IMG/VR virus record: IMGVR_UViG_3300035698_025492
Coordinates: 1-41,541 of that record
DNA from: a virus
DNA: 41,541 bases
Strand: one strand, 5' to 3'
The translations under genes and the position numbers were made by a program. Positions 3,204-39,021 of this stretch are shown here, piece by piece; position 1 is the stretch's first letter, and every line of letters starts with the position of its first letter. Under the pieces are notes generated by a model. It saw only the letters and a program-made list of their open reading frames with translations, was not told where the DNA came from and did no database searches.

Positions 3204-4902
3204 GCCTAAAGGACCGGGTTCTGTTTTATTTAAAAAACGATATGCCCTTACGCCTGAGGAAACTTGGGAAAAGGCTTCTAAAAGGGTTGCGAGACAAGTT
3301 GCCTTGGCTGAAGCGCCAGAACTAATAGAAAAGTGGAAAAATAGATTTTATGATGAATTGGTAAGCAATCGATTTATGCCAGCAGGTAGAATTTGGTATG
3401 GTGCTGGTAGACCTAAGGCGGCTCTTTTCAACTGTTTTGTTATTCCAACGGAAGATTCACGAGAAGGTTGGGGCGATGCAGTTAAGAATATGATTATTAT
3501 TTCTGGAATGGGCGGTGGTGTCGGTCTTAATTTTAGCCCTATTCGTCCAAGAGGTTCTCCTATTCATGGAACTGGTGGTATTGCCACGGGAAGTGTTTCT
3601 TTAATGGAGATTATCAATGCAGCAGGAAATGTAATAAAAGCGGGGGGTGGAAGACGAGCTGCTTTGATGTTTGATTTGAATTTAGATCATCCTGACATTG
3701 AAGAATTTTTAGATAAAAAATTAGATTTAGATCAATTGAATAATGCGAATGTTTCTATAATGATTCCACAAGGAAAACAGGATTCTTTTATAGAAGCAGT
3801 TCGAGAAGATAAAGATTGGGATTTAGTTTGGCAAGGTAAAGTTGTTAAAAAAGTTAAAGCTAAAAAACTTTGGGATCGTTTAATAACAAATATGTTAAAT
3901 AGTGCGGAACCGGGAATCCTTAATAGCCATTTAGCAAACGAGATGAACACTGTTTATTATTGTCGAGAGTTAATAAGCACGAATCCATGTGGCGAACTCC
4001 ATCTGTCTGCAAATGAAGCTTGCGACTTGGGATCTATTGTTTTGCCAAGATTTGTAACATCTAAGGGAGAAATAGACAAACAAGCGTTAGCGGAAACGAT
4101 TACAATTGCAGTAAGATTTTTAGATAATGTTTTAGATATTACAACTTATCCAAATGCTGAGATTAAACAAAATTGCCAACAACTAAGAAGAATTGGCCTT
4201 GGTATTATGGGTTTGCATGATATGCTTTTAAAAATGGGACTTAAATATGATAGCGAAGAAGCTATTGAAGTCGTTGAAAAGCTTATGAAATTCATAAGAA
4301 ACAAAACCTATGAGGCTTCTTGCTTTTTAGCTGTTGAGAAAAGCAGTTTTCCTTTATTTGATCCTGATTTATTTTGTAAATCTGGGTTTATTAAAACTCT
4401 TACTGCTGGAATTAAGCAGAATATACAGGAATATGGAATTCGTAACTGTGCATTGCTATCAATAGCACCAACAGGAACTATTAGTATTATTTCTGGTGTT
4501 AGTTCTGGCATTGAGCCATTATTTGCTTTGGCTTATAAACGAAGGTTTCAAGATGGCGATGAAACTGTTGAGGAAATTTGGACACATCCTCTTTATGAGC
4601 AATTTATGAAAGAGAAGAAAGACGTTTCACATTTTCAAAACGCTCATGATATTTCTGTTGAGGCCCATTTTAATATGCAAATTGTTTGTCAACGTTATAT
4701 TTGCAATGCGGTTTCAAAAACAATTAATGTTCCTAAAAAACACAACAAAAAACAAATAAGTGATTTAATCTTAAACCATTTGCATGAAATAAAAGGAGTA
4801 ACAATGTATGTTGATGGAAGTCGAGGAGAGTCACCATTACAAGCTGTTTCCGAAGATGAAGTCATGAAAAATTTATGTCCTAAAGGTGTTTGTGATATCT
4901 AA
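3196..4902 (+). CDS. nrdJ: Ribonucleoside-diphosphate/triphosphate reductase, class II (adenosylcobalamin-dependent)
   Basis: Makes deoxyribonucleotides for phage DNA synthesis. Visible features are NRFMPAGRIWYGAG then LFNCFV, whose Cys80 is the first redox cysteine; a Gly-rich loop GMGGGVGLNFSPIRPRGS; the catalytic motif STNPCGELHLS, which carries the thiyl-radical Cys plus the conserved Asn and Glu; the PTGTISI motif; and a C-terminal CPKGVC pair typical of the tail that re-reduces the active site. At 568 residues it is short, lacks an ATP cone and has no small-subunit gene beside it, which with the NrdJ-type N-terminal motifs indicates class II. It therefore needs host vitamin B12. The start ATG has AGGAG 7 nt upstream. 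It ends the first operon; the next promoter lies immediately after its stop. Confidence 0.92.
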   Translation: MFEPKGPGSVLFKKRYALTPEETWEKASKRVARQVALAEAPELIEKWKNRFYDELVSNRFMPAGRIWYGAGRPKAALFNCFVIPTEDSREGWGDAVKNMIIISGMGGGVGLNFSPIRPRGSPIHGTGGIATGSVSLMEIINAAGNVIKAGGGRRAALMFDLNLDHPDIEEFLDKKLDLDQLNNANVSIMIPQGKQDSFIEAVREDKDWDLVWQGKVVKKVKAKKLWDRLITNMLNSAEPGILNSHLANEMNTVYYCRELISTNPCGELHLSANEACDLGSIVLPRFVTSKGEIDKQALAETITIAVRFLDNVLDITTYPNAEIKQNCQQLRRIGLGIMGLHDMLLKMGLKYDSEEAIEVVEKLMKFIRNKTYEASCFLAVEKSSFPLFDPDLFCKSGFIKTLTAGIKQNIQEYGIRNCALLSIAPTGTISIISGVSSGIEPLFALAYKRRFQDGDETVEEIWTHPLYEQFMKEKKDVSHFQNAHDISVEAHFNMQIVCQRYICNAVSKTINVPKKHNKKQISDLILNHLHEIKGVTMYVDGSRGESPLQAVSEDEVMKNLCPKGVCDI

Positions 4903-24189: not shown

Positions 24190-25902
24190 ATGCTAGAAAA
24201 AGTCAAAGGTTTAATTAATAAGACCTATACTATTATTAATAACAGGTTAGATGGTATTATTTTAAAAGCTAGAATGGCTGAATTCGATGATTTAGAAAAA
24301 TATGCTGTTGATTATGTGGAAGAAGACGAAAATCAGGGTGGGCCAGGATGGTTAGATAAAAAGGGTCCCATTGGCTTTGATTTTCTTTATGATTTATCTA
24401 GTAGCAGTATTTTTACAGCTATTTCTTTGAGACGTGTTAATGAAATTGCGTCTTTTGCTCATCCTCAAAAAAACAAATACGATGCTGGTTTTATTATTTG
24501 TAAAAGAGATGAAAAGGCTGAGGCTTCCGAAAAAGAACAAAAGGAAATGAACGAATTAGTGGAGTTTGTTTATAATACTGGAATTGAGCAGGGCAGAGAA
24601 AAAATAACCAAGCATCCTCGTAATTTTGAAGAATGGATTCGTTTATCCGCTAGAGATCGCTTAAATTATAATCAAGTTGGATTAGAAAGGGTTTTTACAG
24701 AATATCAAGAAAAGGATAAAGACCCAGTGCTTCATTCTTTTTATCATGTTCCTTCTCATAGCTTAAGATATGCCATGGAAACAGACAACAAGAAGAAACA
24801 GAAGGAGATAAAAGAGGCGTTAAAGGATAATATTCAATATAAAGACAATGCTGATGCGGTAGCTTTACAGAAGAAGATAAAAAAAGACGATGTTTATTGC
24901 GTTCAGGTTTATAAAGAAAGAATTATAAATGTTTTTGACGATAAAGAGCTTCTTTTAAAGCAAGGTAATCTAAATGCTGAGTTGGATAATAATGGTTATG
25001 CCAGGGGGGAGTTAGAATTATCGGTTAATTTAATTAGTTCCCATGTTTTTAGTGAGACGCATAATAAATTGTTTTTTACTCAAGGATTTAGCAACAAGGG
25101 TATTTTAGTTATCAAGAACGCTATGAATCGTAAAGTCATGAATAAATTCAAACAACAATTTAGACAGCAAATGCAAGGAACAGCAAATGCCTTTAGGGTG
25201 CCGATTCTTTCTGGAACGGAAATTCAATGGGTTCCACTTCAAGCTAATTTGAAAGATATGGAGTGGGAAAAGTGGATGAATTATTTGATTAAGTTAATTT
25301 GTGCTATTTTCCAAATGTCCCCTCAAGAAATTAATTTTGATATTTCAAGAGAAGGCGGAGCTGGTCTTGGAGATGGTGGTAATCGTCAAAATGTTATTTT
25401 ATCTCATTTTAAAGAAACGGGTATTCGTCCTTTACTAAGATGGTTTGAAGGAATTGTTAATAGAGGAATTATTCGTTATTATAATGAGGAATTTTATCAA
25501 AAATACATGTTTAGGTTTGTTGGTTTTGATATTGAAGAGGAAAAAGAAGAGGTCGATAGATTAATTAAAGAAGTTGGGACTTACAAAACAGTTAATGAAG
25601 TCAGAAAAGAAAGAGATTTAGAGGAATTGGATCCAGATATGGGAAATGTAATTCTTAATCAGGTTTGGTTACAAGCTCAACAAATGAGTCAGATGGAAGG
25701 ATCAGAGGGCGGTGGTCAGAATAATAATTCTGGTTATGATTCTTCATCTTTTGCTGATGAGAAAAAAGAACCCAAGAGCGGATCTGATGGTGAGCAAAAT
25801 AAAGAAACCAAAGACGTTTTATCTCAAGATAAAAACAAAGCTGAAAAGACTGTTAAGAAAGCAATAAAATTACATAAAATTGAATGGTATGGGGAAGAAT
25901 AA
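24190..25902 (+). CDS. Portal protein
   Basis: Ring at the capsid vertex through which DNA passes. The protein is 570 aa. Portal-like features include an N-terminal FLYDLSSSSIFTAISLRRVNEIA segment, a middle wing of alternating strands, the stem/clip segment FFTQGFSNKGILVIKNAMN, and a C-terminal helical region FQMSPQEINFD then GGAGLGDGGNRQN, which resembles the crown-proximal motif of HK97/SPO1-type portals (QINF, followed by a flexible Gly-rich loop). The tail is Gln/Asn/Ser/Lys-rich. It follows TerL and precedes the MuF-type protein, the standard order. Two nt separate its ATG from the previous stop. Confidence 0.85.
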   Translation: MLEKVKGLINKTYTIINNRLDGIILKARMAEFDDLEKYAVDYVEEDENQGGPGWLDKKGPIGFDFLYDLSSSSIFTAISLRRVNEIASFAHPQKNKYDAGFIICKRDEKAEASEKEQKEMNELVEFVYNTGIEQGREKITKHPRNFEEWIRLSARDRLNYNQVGLERVFTEYQEKDKDPVLHSFYHVPSHSLRYAMETDNKKKQKEIKEALKDNIQYKDNADAVALQKKIKKDDVYCVQVYKERIINVFDDKELLLKQGNLNAELDNNGYARGELELSVNLISSHVFSETHNKLFFTQGFSNKGILVIKNAMNRKVMNKFKQQFRQQMQGTANAFRVPILSGTEIQWVPLQANLKDMEWEKWMNYLIKLICAIFQMSPQEINFDISREGGAGLGDGGNRQNVILSHFKETGIRPLLRWFEGIVNRGIIRYYNEEFYQKYMFRFVGFDIEEEKEEVDRLIKEVGTYKTVNEVRKERDLEELDPDMGNVILNQVWLQAQQMSQMEGSEGGGQNNNSGYDSSSFADEKKEPKSGSDGEQNKETKDVLSQDKNKAEKTVKKAIKLHKIEWYGEE

Positions 25903-26030
25903 TGCCAACAGGGGTTTATACAAGAACGAAAGAACATAAGGAAAAGATTAGAGAATTCCAATTTTTATACTCAAATATAAAATTTGAAATATTGCAAAAA
26001 AAAGAATTAAAAGGCTTGGGGGTATTGTGA
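25902..26030 (+). CDS. Small basic protein (42 aa), NUMOD-like start
   Basis: ATG 25902 overlaps the portal stop (TAATG) and the stop overlaps the next GTG start (GTGA), a compact arrangement typical of real phage genes. It begins MPTGVYTRTKEHKEKIREFQ, a pattern resembling the TGxYxRTxEH repeats of homing-endonuclease DNA-binding regions. It may be a remnant of a mobile gene or just a small basic peptide. Confidence 0.4.
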   Translation: MPTGVYTRTKEHKEKIREFQFLYSNIKFEILQKKELKGLGVL

Positions 26031-26905
26031 GTAGGATTCAGATTCTTTTAGAAAAACATGAGCATATTGAAGACATCAAAGAGTTCATTTGTAAAGCGTT
26101 CCAATCTCAGATTGATGAGCGTGACCACTTCGCAGATCCGGTCATGGAGGAATTGCTGAAGGAAGGCGATTCTTGGTTCAATTATTTTTCACATGAAATG
26201 ATGAAGGAAATTGTTGAAGTTGTTGTTGGGGAGCCAATTGTTAAGTCGTTAGAAAAAGGCAGGAAACCTTTTCCAATCGGGACTGTTCGTAATGGTTTAA
26301 AGAAAATTAAAGATGGTAAGTGGGTTCCTGTCAAGGGAACGAAGAAGCCCCATAAGATGGAGCTAGAAGAAGAAGCGAAGAAGTATAAGACGGCGGAAGA
26401 GTTTAAAGCACAAGCAGATGATGAGCCAATAGTTTTTAAAAGAGTTAAGCTTGATGGTTATATTGAAGAGCGTGGTAAATCAAAACGACCTGAATTTTTA
26501 ACCCCTTATACCTCAAAACAATTAAAGGATATGGGTGCAAAAGCGCATACGAATAATAAGGCTGGCTATGTCTTAACAAAAGACAATGATATTATTGGGG
26601 TATTTAACAATAGTGGTATTAAGGGTGCATGGCAAGGGGCTCTTATAGACGCTATTCAGCGTGGTGGAGAAACTTTAGACTGCATTGATGGTCATTTAGA
26701 CACATATTATAGCCGATTTGGTTTTAAATTAATAGAGCGACTTCCGTGGGACGATGAGAAGGCGCCTGAAGGGTGGAATTATGAAAAATATGGAAAACCA
26801 ACAGTCTCGTTCTGGGAGTACCCAAAAGGACTCTCCAGAAAAGCAACTGACATACGAAGACGTTTTGAAGTTGCTAAACGTGAAGGAACTGCCGTTTCTG
26901 GATGA
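26027..26905 (+). CDS. GNAT-like protein in the head gene cluster
   Basis: 292 aa with a GTG start (GGGGG upstream). Residues about 185-270 contain AGYVLTKDNDIIGVFNNSGIKG, LDCIDGHLDTYYSRFGF and EKAPEGWNYEKYGKPTVSFW (shown here as separate pieces). Together these match the GNAT-like N-acyltransferase fold found in phage proteins whose pattern is FNN-G-KG ... LDCFDGxL-xYY-xxGF ... PxxWNYxxxGxPDVxFW. The N-terminal half is Lys/Glu-rich and helical and includes a DGKWVPV segment seen in head-associated proteins. Substrate and function are unknown; it could modify virion or host proteins. It overlaps the next small gene. Confidence 0.5.
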   Translation: MSRIQILLEKHEHIEDIKEFICKAFQSQIDERDHFADPVMEELLKEGDSWFNYFSHEMMKEIVEVVVGEPIVKSLEKGRKPFPIGTVRNGLKKIKDGKWVPVKGTKKPHKMELEEEAKKYKTAEEFKAQADDEPIVFKRVKLDGYIEERGKSKRPEFLTPYTSKQLKDMGAKAHTNNKAGYVLTKDNDIIGVFNNSGIKGAWQGALIDAIQRGGETLDCIDGHLDTYYSRFGFKLIERLPWDDEKAPEGWNYEKYGKPTVSFWEYPKGLSRKATDIRRRFEVAKREGTAVSG

Positions 26906-27074: not shown

Positions 27075-29015
27075 ATGCTAATAAATAAGAGTAAAAGAAG
27101 AAGGATCGGAAAGATCATCGAGAAATATTATAATGCTATAATCTTCAAAATTGCTGGTCCTGGTGAATTATCAGCTTCGCAAATTAACACATTACAAGAA
27201 GAAGGGATTATCACTCTTCCATATGAATTAGATACGCCTGTTGTAGAGGAAGCTTATGCAATTGGTAGAGTTCGTAATACCCCCATGGGAAAATTCCCTG
27301 ACAGTGATTTGAACAAATTTCGTGTTTTTGAAAAAAGACATTTTGCTCCATATACTACAAAAGAAAAATTTACCATAGAGCATGTCCGAGAAAGTATGGG
27401 CATTTATTTAACTAAGGCTAAAGAAATGGCCAAGGCGTCAATGTTGGGTGCAATTGGTGATGTTAACCAAGAAGTAGCTCAACAGGTGTTAATGGGCAAG
27501 TTGAAAGATGTTACAGAAGACGCAATTGTTCAGCGTACAGGTAGAAGAAAATTAGCAAGTCAATTAAGAGATTTAACAAAAGATATGCATAGAGATTGGT
27601 CTAGGGTTGCAGATACGGAATTAAGTCGTGCTTTTAATCAGGGTGCTGCTGATGCAATAGCAATGAACAATAAAGGTAAAGAGGATAAAGACGTTAATGT
27701 GTATGCGATAGTTAGCAAGGATGCGGCCTTATGTTTGCCTAAAGAGACTTTGGTTGATTTGGCTTCTGGAGAAAAAGTAGAAATTTGCGATTTAAGGATC
27801 GGGGATAAAGTAAAGACTCATAGGTCAGCTAATTATGGTTCTCCAACTAAAGGGGTTTTGTCTATTTCTAAAAGAAAGATTGATGAGGAAATATACTCTT
27901 TTGATTTGGGGGATGATGGAAGAATTGAATGCACTGAGGAGCATCCTTTATTAGTTAAAATAAAAAATAGATTTGTTTTTTTAGAGGCTAAATATATTAC
28001 AAAAAAAATGGAAATAATGACTTTAAAAGAATTAAAAACTATAAATGGTAGGCGTTATCGCTATTGTGCAAGACAATATGATTGGTATTTAGATAATAAG
28101 GATGAGCTGTTGAGGAAATATTATGTGGAGGGTTTGTCCTTTCTTGAATTAAGAAAATATTTTGATTTAAAGGTTTATTGGGGATGGTTATTAAACATTT
28201 TCAAGGATAGAGGCTTAAAAATTTATAAAGGGGGTCAACTTGATTGTATTAAAGCAAAATTTAGACTTGAAAATATTGAGATAAAAAAGAAAATTGTTGA
28301 GGATTATACTAAGGGGGTTTCAGGATCTCAAATAAGAAAAAAATACGGGATACCAGAAAAAATATGGTATAGAGACAAAGAATGGTATAATTCATTAGGG
28401 ATATTCCCTAGAGAGGCCAATCAAACAAGAAAAATTAATGGTTCTAGTAAGATGTCCGAACAACAGAAGAAAAAATTGAGTAAATTTCGCAAGCAATATT
28501 ATCAAAATATTTCTAAAGAAGATTATAAAAAAATGTGCATAAACAATAAAAGAGCAAGAAGGATTTTGGAAGAAAATATGACGGAGGGTCAAAAAGAAAA
28601 AAGAAAATTAAAAATGTCTATTATATCTAAGAAGAATTGGGAGAAGGATACGTTTAGGGCGAAAATTACTGAAAGAATGATTAATGGAGGAGCGAAAATG
28701 GCTTGTGGTCATAATTGTAATCCCTCTAAGCCGCAAAAACAATTGTATGATATGGTTAAATCTAAATATTCAGATGCTATATTAAATAAGGGAGTAAAAT
28801 TAAGTAATATTAAGGCATGTTTTATTGATATTGCTATTCCATCATTAAATATTGCTATTGAATATGATGGTTCTTATTGGCATCAAGATGCAAAGGTGGA
28901 CGATATAAGACAAAAGCAACTAGAAAAGTTAGGCTGGAGGATTGTTCGTTATAGAGATTATGTTCCTAGTTTAAGCGAAATTGATTTTGATATAAAAGGG
29001 GCGTTAGATGGCTAA
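27075..29015 (+). CDS. MuF-type head morphogenesis protein N-extein + split intein N-half + Vsr-like homing endonuclease
   Basis: 646 aa in three parts. Residues 1-219 are the N-terminal part of a phage Mu F-like minor head protein, ending IVSKDAAL. At Cys220 (27732) an intein begins: CLPKETLVDLASGEKVEI (block A) and GRIECTEEHPLL (block B, with the TxxH motif), to about residue 318. The remainder is an endonuclease: a basic region with Trp/Tyr- and Lys-rich DNA-binding segments, then from about 550 a Vsr/DUF559-like nuclease (FIDIAIP, NIAIEYDGSYWH, GWRIVRYRD), with Asp585, Glu596, Asp598 and His603 as likely active-site residues. The frame stops at 29015, inside the next gene's start. The C-intein and C-extein are encoded separately at 29008, so the head protein must form by protein trans-splicing. 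Confidence 0.88.
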   Translation: MLINKSKRRRIGKIIEKYYNAIIFKIAGPGELSASQINTLQEEGIITLPYELDTPVVEEAYAIGRVRNTPMGKFPDSDLNKFRVFEKRHFAPYTTKEKFTIEHVRESMGIYLTKAKEMAKASMLGAIGDVNQEVAQQVLMGKLKDVTEDAIVQRTGRRKLASQLRDLTKDMHRDWSRVADTELSRAFNQGAADAIAMNNKGKEDKDVNVYAIVSKDAALCLPKETLVDLASGEKVEICDLRIGDKVKTHRSANYGSPTKGVLSISKRKIDEEIYSFDLGDDGRIECTEEHPLLVKIKNRFVFLEAKYITKKMEIMTLKELKTINGRRYRYCARQYDWYLDNKDELLRKYYVEGLSFLELRKYFDLKVYWGWLLNIFKDRGLKIYKGGQLDCIKAKFRLENIEIKKKIVEDYTKGVSGSQIRKKYGIPEKIWYRDKEWYNSLGIFPREANQTRKINGSSKMSEQQKKKLSKFRKQYYQNISKEDYKKMCINNKRARRILEENMTEGQKEKRKLKMSIISKKNWEKDTFRAKITERMINGGAKMACGHNCNPSKPQKQLYDMVKSKYSDAILNKGVKLSNIKACFIDIAIPSLNIAIEYDGSYWHQDAKVDDIRQKQLEKLGWRIVRYRDYVPSLSEIDFDIKGALDG

Positions 29016-29115
29016 GATTAAATTAATTAGTAAAAAATATTATAAGGGGGATGTTTATAATTTAGAAATTGAGGATGACCATACATTTATCGCAAATGGT
29101 GTTGTTACTCATAAT
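27732..29115 (+). mobile_element. Split (fractured) intein with embedded endonuclease in the MuF-type head gene
   Basis: The element runs from Cys1 (codon 27732-27734) to the terminal Asn (29113-29115) and is divided between two genes by an 8-nt overlap (29008-29015). IntN is about 27732-28031, the endonuclease domain about 28032-29012 and IntC 29008-29115. The IntC is 36 residues, the size of natural C-inteins such as Npu DnaE, and ends VVTHN followed by Cys+1. The exteins join as DAAL-CPHCRKFY, restoring the conserved CPHC region of MuF-family proteins. Split inteins with Vsr-like homing endonucleases are known as fractured genes; here the nuclease is fused to IntN rather than free-standing. 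Confidence 0.85.
28994..29001 (+). promoter_or_regulatory. Ribosome binding site for the C-intein gene (AAAAGGGG)
   Basis: Lies 6 nt before ATG 29008, inside the last codons of the upstream gene. It supports independent initiation of the IntC/C-extein protein. Confidence 0.75.
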
Positions 29116-29373
29116 TGTCCTCATTGCAGAAAATTTTACCTTATGCCTAATGGCGAACCAAGAATTTATACGATGAAGCAACTTAAGGGCAATGGTACAA
29201 ACTATGGATTAAAGACATCGCAATGGAAAGCAATAATCCCACCAATGCACCCCTCGTGCAGATGTACTTTAGTTCAGCTTCCAAAAGGAATGGGATTTAA
29301 AGAAGGGACTCAACGCACGACATATAAAGGACAAGATTATAATATATTAAAAGAACAAAATAAGAAAAAATAA
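29008..29373 (+). CDS. Split intein C-half + C-extein of the MuF-type head protein
   Basis: 121 aa. Residues 1-36 are an IntC: KKYYKGDVYNLEIEDDHTF (block F), then ANGVVTHN (block G), ending in Asn36. Cys37 is the +1 nucleophile and starts the C-extein CPHCRKFYLMPNGEP, which ends with PPMHPSCRCTLVQLP, the classic zinc-binding C-terminal motif of Mu F-like head proteins. After splicing the head protein would be 304 residues (219 + 85). Start ATG 29008 is supported by AAAAGGGG 6 nt upstream. An in-frame TAG sits directly before the ATG, so this frame cannot extend upstream and the split does not depend on a frameshift. Translation is probably coupled to the upstream stop. Confidence 0.88.
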   Translation: MAKIKLISKKYYKGDVYNLEIEDDHTFIANGVVTHNCPHCRKFYLMPNGEPRIYTMKQLKGNGTNYGLKTSQWKAIIPPMHPSCRCTLVQLPKGMGFKEGTQRTTYKGQDYNILKEQNKKK

Positions 29374-37854: not shown

Positions 37855-39021
37855 ATGTCTAATGTAGCTGTGATTATCATGGCAGGAGGAGAAGGGACTC
37901 GATTTTACCCCCTATCCACACCCGAACATCCAAAACAATTCATAGATTTTTTCGAAGACGCTCCTTGCTTGCTCAAACAAACTTATGAAAGAGCACAGAA
38001 AATTGCGCGTGATGAACAAATCTATTTTTGTACCAATGCAAAATATGGTGAAAAAATTCATAATATAATTCCTAATGCTAATTTGATTCTAGAGCAAAAA
38101 AAGAAAAATACGGGACCAGCCTTAGCAAACGCAATGCATAAGGTTTTCTTGCATTTAAAAGAAAAGGGGTTTACGGCAGTTTGTTTGCCCTCTGATCATT
38201 ATATTGCTAATGAAGAATATTATATTAAAAAAATAAAAGAAGGAATAGAAATTGCTGAACAGGGCAAAATTGTTACGCTTGGTATTACACCCACAGAACC
38301 ATCAACAGAATATGGATATATAAAACCGGCCAATTTTAGCTACAAGCCGTCAAAAATAGATGCTTTTGTAGAAAAACCAAATAAAGATACGGCGAAAACG
38401 TATGTGGCTGATGGCTATCTTTGGAACTCTGGAATGTTTATTTGGAGTTACCATACCTTTATGATTGAGTTAGAAACTCATGCACCTAATTTATTTAAAA
38501 ATATATATTCCATTAAAGATTATTTGGAAAAGATGGAACCAATCTCTATTGATTGTCTCTTAATGGAAAAAACTCGAAAAGGTGTAGTTATACCAACCCA
38601 TTTAGATTGGTCTGATTTGGGGAATTGGGGAGCATTAAAAGCAATATCAAAAAAAATTAAATTAAAACCAAATATTCAGGCCTATGTAGATAGAATGGTA
38701 GTTAAACCGTGGGGTTATGAGGATCGATGGGCAATCACTAGGGATTATGTGGGTAAGCTTCTTTATATTAAAAAAGGATGTAGATTATCGCTTCAATATC
38801 ATCAGATAAAAGATGAAACCATTATGTTAATAAAAGGGAAAATGAAATTAAAATTCAATACGGAAGATATCGTTATGGTGCCAGGTCAAACCCAAAAAAT
38901 AGCGCCAACCGATATACATAGGATGGAAGCCCTTGAAGATTGTGTTGTTGTAGAGGTTTCAACAATAGAGATTGATGATGTAGTAAGGGTTTCAGATGAT
39001 TATGGGAGGGAGTACAAATGA
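37855..39021 (+). CDS. Mannose-1-phosphate guanylyltransferase / phosphomannose isomerase-type bifunctional enzyme (ManC-like)
   Basis: 388 aa. The N-terminal nucleotidyltransferase has VIIMAGGEGTRFYPLST (nucleotide-binding loop) and PKQF, with CLPSDHYI as the metal-binding motif, TEYGYIKP, FVEKP and LWNSGMFIW, all typical of ManC/GMP. A cupin-like C-terminal domain follows: VVKPWGYEDRW, SLQYHQIKDE, IMLIKGK (cupin His/Glu motifs). Bacterial bifunctional ManC is about 470 aa, so this is a compact form. It would make GDP-mannose from mannose-1-phosphate, for glycosylating DNA or virion or for changing host surface sugars. AAGGAGGAG precedes ATG 37855. Confidence 0.88.
   Translation: MSNVAVIIMAGGEGTRFYPLSTPEHPKQFIDFFEDAPCLLKQTYERAQKIARDEQIYFCTNAKYGEKIHNIIPNANLILEQKKKNTGPALANAMHKVFLHLKEKGFTAVCLPSDHYIANEEYYIKKIKEGIEIAEQGKIVTLGITPTEPSTEYGYIKPANFSYKPSKIDAFVEKPNKDTAKTYVADGYLWNSGMFIWSYHTFMIELETHAPNLFKNIYSIKDYLEKMEPISIDCLLMEKTRKGVVIPTHLDWSDLGNWGALKAISKKIKLKPNIQAYVDRMVVKPWGYEDRWAITRDYVGKLLYIKKGCRLSLQYHQIKDETIMLIKGKMKLKFNTEDIVMVPGQTQKIAPTDIHRMEALEDCVVVEVSTIEIDDVVRVSDDYGREYK

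Follow-up and report, generated by a model that had tools for sequence, protein, structure and literature searches.

How might a phage make an intact head protein from a gene that is broken in two? The question is raised by the gene for MuF, a minor head protein, in IMG/VR virus record IMGVR_UViG_3300035698_025492, a 41.5-kb virus record that was analyzed at its full length (the window) and whose replication and head genes are laid out as in a phage. Two open reading frames (ORFs) on the plus strand carry the gene: ORF1 (27075-29015; 646 amino acids, aa) encodes, in order, the N-terminal part of MuF (N-extein, 219 aa), the N-terminal half of an intein (IntN), a linker and an endonuclease, and ORF2 (29008-29373; 121 aa) encodes the C-terminal intein half (IntC, 36 aa) followed by the rest of MuF (C-extein). 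N-extein plus IntN and IntC plus C-extein lie in two separate ORFs, as in naturally split inteins. We consider it very probable that the element is a mobile, naturally split intein whose halves trans-splice to yield a 304-aa MuF and whose freed IntN-endonuclease homes. The original prediction had proposed a split intein in the MuF gene, which stands as the best reading of the locus; it had missed the homing-endonuclease domain fused to IntN and had not considered the precedent of the fractured genes of phages.

The N-extein (ORF1 residues 1-219; 27075-27731) is 72% identical over 219 aa to the intein-free MuF of a relative (L001/L009; IMG/VR 3300035698_019997), and the C-extein, which runs from Cys+1 to the stop (29116-29373) and contains the CPHC...HPSCRC motif, is 73% identical to it. 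ORF1 matches PF04233 (Phage_Mu_F) weakly (E=0.084), the match of the intein-free relative being clearer (E=2.8e-5); the C-extein in ORF2 matches TIGR01641 (phageSPP1_gp7; E=1.1e-5), and PHROG matches of the host gene name a minor head protein and head morphogenesis. Judged by homology and by its position after the portal gene (24190-25902, two genes upstream), the host gene is that of a MuF/SPP1 gp7-like minor head protein. Because L001/L009 reads SKDAALCPHCRKLYLMP unbroken across the insertion site, with DAAL and CPHC contiguous, the splice junction between DAAL and CPHC is exact, and recomputing the joined length returned the 304 aa originally proposed. Cys+1, in the CxxC...HPxCRC motif, is among the few residues invariant across MuF relatives; invariant positions of host proteins are typical insertion sites of inteins.

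On the ORF1 side of this junction, the N-extein ends at Leu219 and IntN begins at Cys220, as predicted, extending to about residue 322 (27732-28040, the 3′ edge being approximate) and comprising blocks A and B, the TxxH of block B being read in CTEEHP. PF14890 (Intein_splicing), Vint, Hint and TIGR01445 match ORF1 weakly, beginning at residue 220 or just beyond it, and the C1, CT, HP, L and V columns of IntN are conserved in two further phage loci, L059 and L077, taken up below. On the other side, the separate gene does supply a 36-aa IntC (29008-29115), MAKIKLISKKYYKGDVYNLEIEDDHTFIANGVVTHN, which ends in His-Asn (block G), Asn36 being followed directly by Cys+1. This half matches TIGR01443 (intein_Cterm) with E=1.6e-9 and positions 121-155 of PF14890 with E=1.1e-6, and these two matches take the intein reading beyond chance. 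When joined, the two halves also resemble solved split inteins, the best matches including Npu DnaE and gp41-1, and when ORF1-type inteins were combined in a three-row profile and run against the PDB, gp41-1 came first and NrdJ-1 within the top five. The split point is the canonical endonuclease site, with an IntN of about 100 aa and an IntC of 36 aa; the canonical split gives about 100 aa and about 35-40 aa (PMC12707363). The likeness to gp41-1, NrdJ-1 and Npu DnaE lies in the halves of the HINT fold, the place of the split and an IntC of about 36 aa, and the C-half matches those of Npu and gp41-1, but sequence identity is low and those solved proteins have no endonuclease domain. The intein parts are lower in GC content (0.26-0.30) than the exteins (0.36-0.37).

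The rest of ORF1 bears on mobility. A mostly helical linker (28041-28724), a probable DNA-binding region, is modeled by AlphaFold2 at low confidence (predicted local distance difference test, pLDDT, 25-50). The C-terminal end (28725-29012) is a putative Vsr-like (EDxHD/DUF559/MTES_1575) homing-endonuclease catalytic domain: residues 577-628 match the nuclease families DUF559 and MTES_1575 (PF18741, E=9.4e-7; PF04480, E=4.7e-5), and a nine-row endonuclease profile run against PDB sequences returned I-Bth0305I (3R3P) first, at modest significance (E=0.0048). The whole ORF1 intein was modeled too uncertainly (mean pLDDT 49.9) to be used beyond its endonuclease domain; Foldseek with the domain model (mean pLDDT 72) again ranked I-Bth0305I first (probability 1.00, E=0.009), and so did a run with the whole-ORF model, poor overall. 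By sequence profile and modeled fold alike, the domain appears closest to I-Bth0305I, to which it is nonetheless only about 17% identical and which belongs to a group I intron (PMC3943268). Related free-standing endonucleases occur in several of the same loci.

What makes two genes of this element is a break at the endonuclease/IntC border. In the IntC frame a TAG directly precedes the ATG at 29008, and ORF1 stops at 29015; a single indel that fuses the frames must therefore fall in 29008-29015. This stretch, ATGGCTAA, in which the start of ORF2 overlaps the stop of ORF1, is indeed 8 nucleotides (nt) without a homopolymer, and 6 nt before the ATG lies AAAAGGGG (28994-29001), a run that resembles, and may serve as, a ribosome-binding site. 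The original prediction held a sequencing error to be unlikely, a judgment strengthened by a same-codon break, in a different relative frame, in two diverged phages. One, L059 (IMG/VR 3300042090_002687), surfaced in a profile scan for MuF relatives, its C-extein match beginning exactly at Cys+1; the other, L077 (IMG/VR 2140918008_000058), surfaced through a DNA pattern modeled on the junction of IntC and C-extein. ORF1 of L059 (4196-5908; 570 aa) comprises N-extein, IntN and a DUF559 domain at its C terminus, and its ORF2 opens at ATG 5896 with a 35-aa IntC that ends in HHN and is followed by Cys; L077 has the same order, with a 586-aa ORF1 that ends in DUF559 and an ORF2 whose 35-aa IntC ends in NHN. 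The insertion interrupts the same MuF codon with the same domain order in all three phages, each with the endonuclease fused to the C terminus of IntN, and the splicing residues (Cys1, the block B TxxH, His-Asn at the end of IntC, and Cys+1) are present throughout. The loci are nonetheless far apart, with identities of 25-35% in ORF1 (about 25% between the window and either of the others), 27-40% in the intein parts and 32-47% in ORF2. ORF2 begins with ATGGC within the last 8-13 nt of ORF1 in every case, the overlaps of L059 and L077 being ATGGCAAAATTAA and ATGGCGCGTCTAG, and its frame relative to ORF1 is +1 in the window and -1 in the other two. Since the same position recurs in two distantly related phages, it is almost certain that the broken arrangement is genuine rather than produced by sequencing error.

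Wider searches recovered the same few loci. The pattern HNCxxCxxxxLMP[DN] hit nothing in genome contigs and, in viral contigs, L059 and L077 alone; when a profile was built from the L059/L077 inteins, neither viral nor genome contigs yielded another host gene; scanning viral contigs with a single protein, first ORF1 and then the N-extein, returned only L001/L009; and blastn of the window intein against phage records gave no match. A THNCPHC DNA pattern hit 16 stretches, among which tblastn with the window intein and MuF parts found no relative. ORF2 matches in Bacteroides, Chryseobacterium, Myxococcus and Lysinibacillus phages, which seemingly started within IntC or at Cys+1, turned out to be uninterrupted MuF proteins, as did an unannotated gut phage sequence.

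In a tree built from 49 MuF exteins, the three intein-bearing proteins do not form one clade (approximately unbiased test, p 1.6e-60), and their neighbors are intein-free: the window groups with L009, L059 with L052/L049/L036, and L077 with L005/L044. This scattered presence, together with the endonuclease domain, fits a homing (mobile) element.

Several points weigh against a mobile, actively splicing intein. The family matches of IntN fall below curated cut-offs. The window endonuclease reads SKPQ where L059 and L077 read SKPE and where most free-standing relatives also have Glu, and this change from Glu to Gln in the motif may mean that the window copy is impaired or no longer cuts. The scattered distribution, judged from the tree alone, may reflect repeated loss rather than horizontal gain. 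The same Glu-to-Gln change would suit a decaying intein whose halves no longer splice, MuF then consisting of two non-covalently associated chains. We regard this as quite improbable: the splicing residues are all retained in three lineages that are 25-35% identical, the break lies exactly at the invariant MuF Cys so that unspliced ORF1 leaves the motif disrupted, and the unspliced product would bear about 430 extra residues. Slightly less probable again is an indel introduced by sequencing or assembly, or a recent mutation that shifted the frame, as the cause that broke a contiguous endonuclease-bearing intein, the true gene being one ORF or a pseudogene; the contig is metagenomic and the break in the window only 8 nt wide, but that stretch offers no homopolymer, the coding blocks on both sides are all open and conserved, and the same border is broken in two unrelated contigs, with their own ATGGC start and stop and the other relative frame, so one indel cannot account for all three breaks. 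A programmed ribosomal frameshift at the overlap, giving a continuous precursor spliced in cis, is the least probable of all, for although the frames overlap by 8-13 nt, every ORF2 starts at an ATG of its own, preceded by a purine-rich stretch, no slippery heptamer was seen by eye in the L059 and L077 overlaps, and a conserved frameshift does not fit a set of loci that would need two different shifts, +1 and -1.

Returning to the mobile split intein, we posit that ORF1 yields MuF-N joined to IntN and the Vsr-like endonuclease and that ORF2 yields IntC joined to MuF-C, translation of ORF2 probably being coupled to that of ORF1, as suggested by the overlap and by the purine-rich stretch before each ATG. 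Between the intein halves, promoter-like sites occur no more often than in shuffled sequence. IntN and IntC would then associate and trans-splice by the class 1 route, with steps read from the conserved residues and the known pathway: Cys220 (Cys1) would make the first acyl shift, the block B TxxH and the terminal His-Asn would contribute, Cys+1 would take over the chain, and Asn36 would cyclize. DAAL would thereby be joined to CPHC in the 304-aa MuF and the IntN-endonuclease released, which, in this lineage or its ancestors, could cut MuF alleles that lack the intein, at the conserved CxxC codons, and thereby bring about homing. If the proposed splicing is true, a virion structural gene is under obligate protein trans-splicing.

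Is such an arrangement new? Its type is already known. In the "fractured genes" that Dassa and colleagues reportedly described in 2009, a split intein interrupts a conserved phage gene, and an endonuclease is encoded between its halves; the enzyme is said to be Vsr-like (EDxHD) in about half of the loci and free-standing, and the host genes to be those of DNA synthesis or repair enzymes. The MuF split intein likewise interrupts a conserved phage gene and has coding for a Vsr-like endonuclease between its halves, and by this analogy it is closely allied to the fractured genes. It differs from them in that each of the three loci has the endonuclease fused in frame with IntN, that the host gene encodes a head protein, and that IntC starts within the stop region of ORF1; because of the fusion to IntN, we class it as a variant rather than a member. 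The PolB gene of jumbo phage MIJ3 also has a split intein with endonuclease coding between its halves, but in three separate ORFs (153, 154 and 155), with an HNH enzyme and a DNA polymerase as host (PMC6892783). Our literature search found no paper linking split inteins to head morphogenesis or head proteins.

The locus bears on how contiguous inteins became split, for its arrangement lies between both forms and has been kept in three diverged phages. Tentatively, the IntN-endonuclease fusion and the restart at the endonuclease/IntC border could mark an intermediate on the way from a contiguous endonuclease-bearing intein to a split one, a stop and overlapping restart coming first and the endonuclease being detached into its own gene later; a distinct and stable "half-fractured" lineage would then persist in phage structural genes, a single trans-splicing event both completing the head protein and freeing the homing enzyme. 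For protein ligation, the three loci offer three new natural IntN/IntC pairs.

The other inteins encountered in these phages are contiguous, and Pfam scans, where run, showed LAGLIDADG domains in them; among the inteins in the loci examined, only the split one has a Vsr-like endonuclease. A second group interrupts MuF itself, directly before the Cys of HP[HW]C (L057:2893-4830, L043:6046-7542, L054:4747-5661). These share with the split intein the host gene and a place before a conserved Cys but differ in insertion site, and where complete (L057) they form one continuous ORF, with a LAGLIDADG endonuclease; that of L043 is contiguous as well, and that of L054 is only a start, ended by the contig edge. 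By sequence, MuF has at least two intein sites. Contiguous inteins also lie upstream of the portal gene in L036 (95-2188, with LAGLIDADG) and L056 (246-1466); from locus context, their host gene is probably the terminase large subunit, and their IntC is 48-57% identical to that of the window. The L059 contig has a further intein C-end within a 1003-aa open frame. Matches in an Eggerthella phage portal gene and an Enterococcus phage ribonucleotide reductase gene were set aside as contiguous LAGLIDADG inteins.

Around intein-free MuF genes, L001 encodes a free-standing NUMOD3 protein (3523-4350) directly upstream of MuF, and a 70-aa ORF at that spot corresponds to no more than the beginning of the 292-aa gene that the window carries at 26027-26905. 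The L046 contig ends exactly at the MuF Cys+1 (positions 1-30) and is nearly identical to intein-free L018, which may reflect an assembly break where intein-bearing and intein-free variants diverge. In the window, the split MuF locus is preceded by genes for GroEL, ribonucleotide reductase, DnaB, a sliding clamp, DNA polymerase III alpha, terminase and portal. The GroEL-like chaperonin (1243-2895; PHROG 5725, E=5e-106) has a small ORF (1004-1264) directly upstream, and positions 37855-39021 encode a sugar-nucleotide enzyme of the phage, in which a nucleotidyl transferase is joined to the C-terminal domain of a mannose-6-phosphate isomerase.
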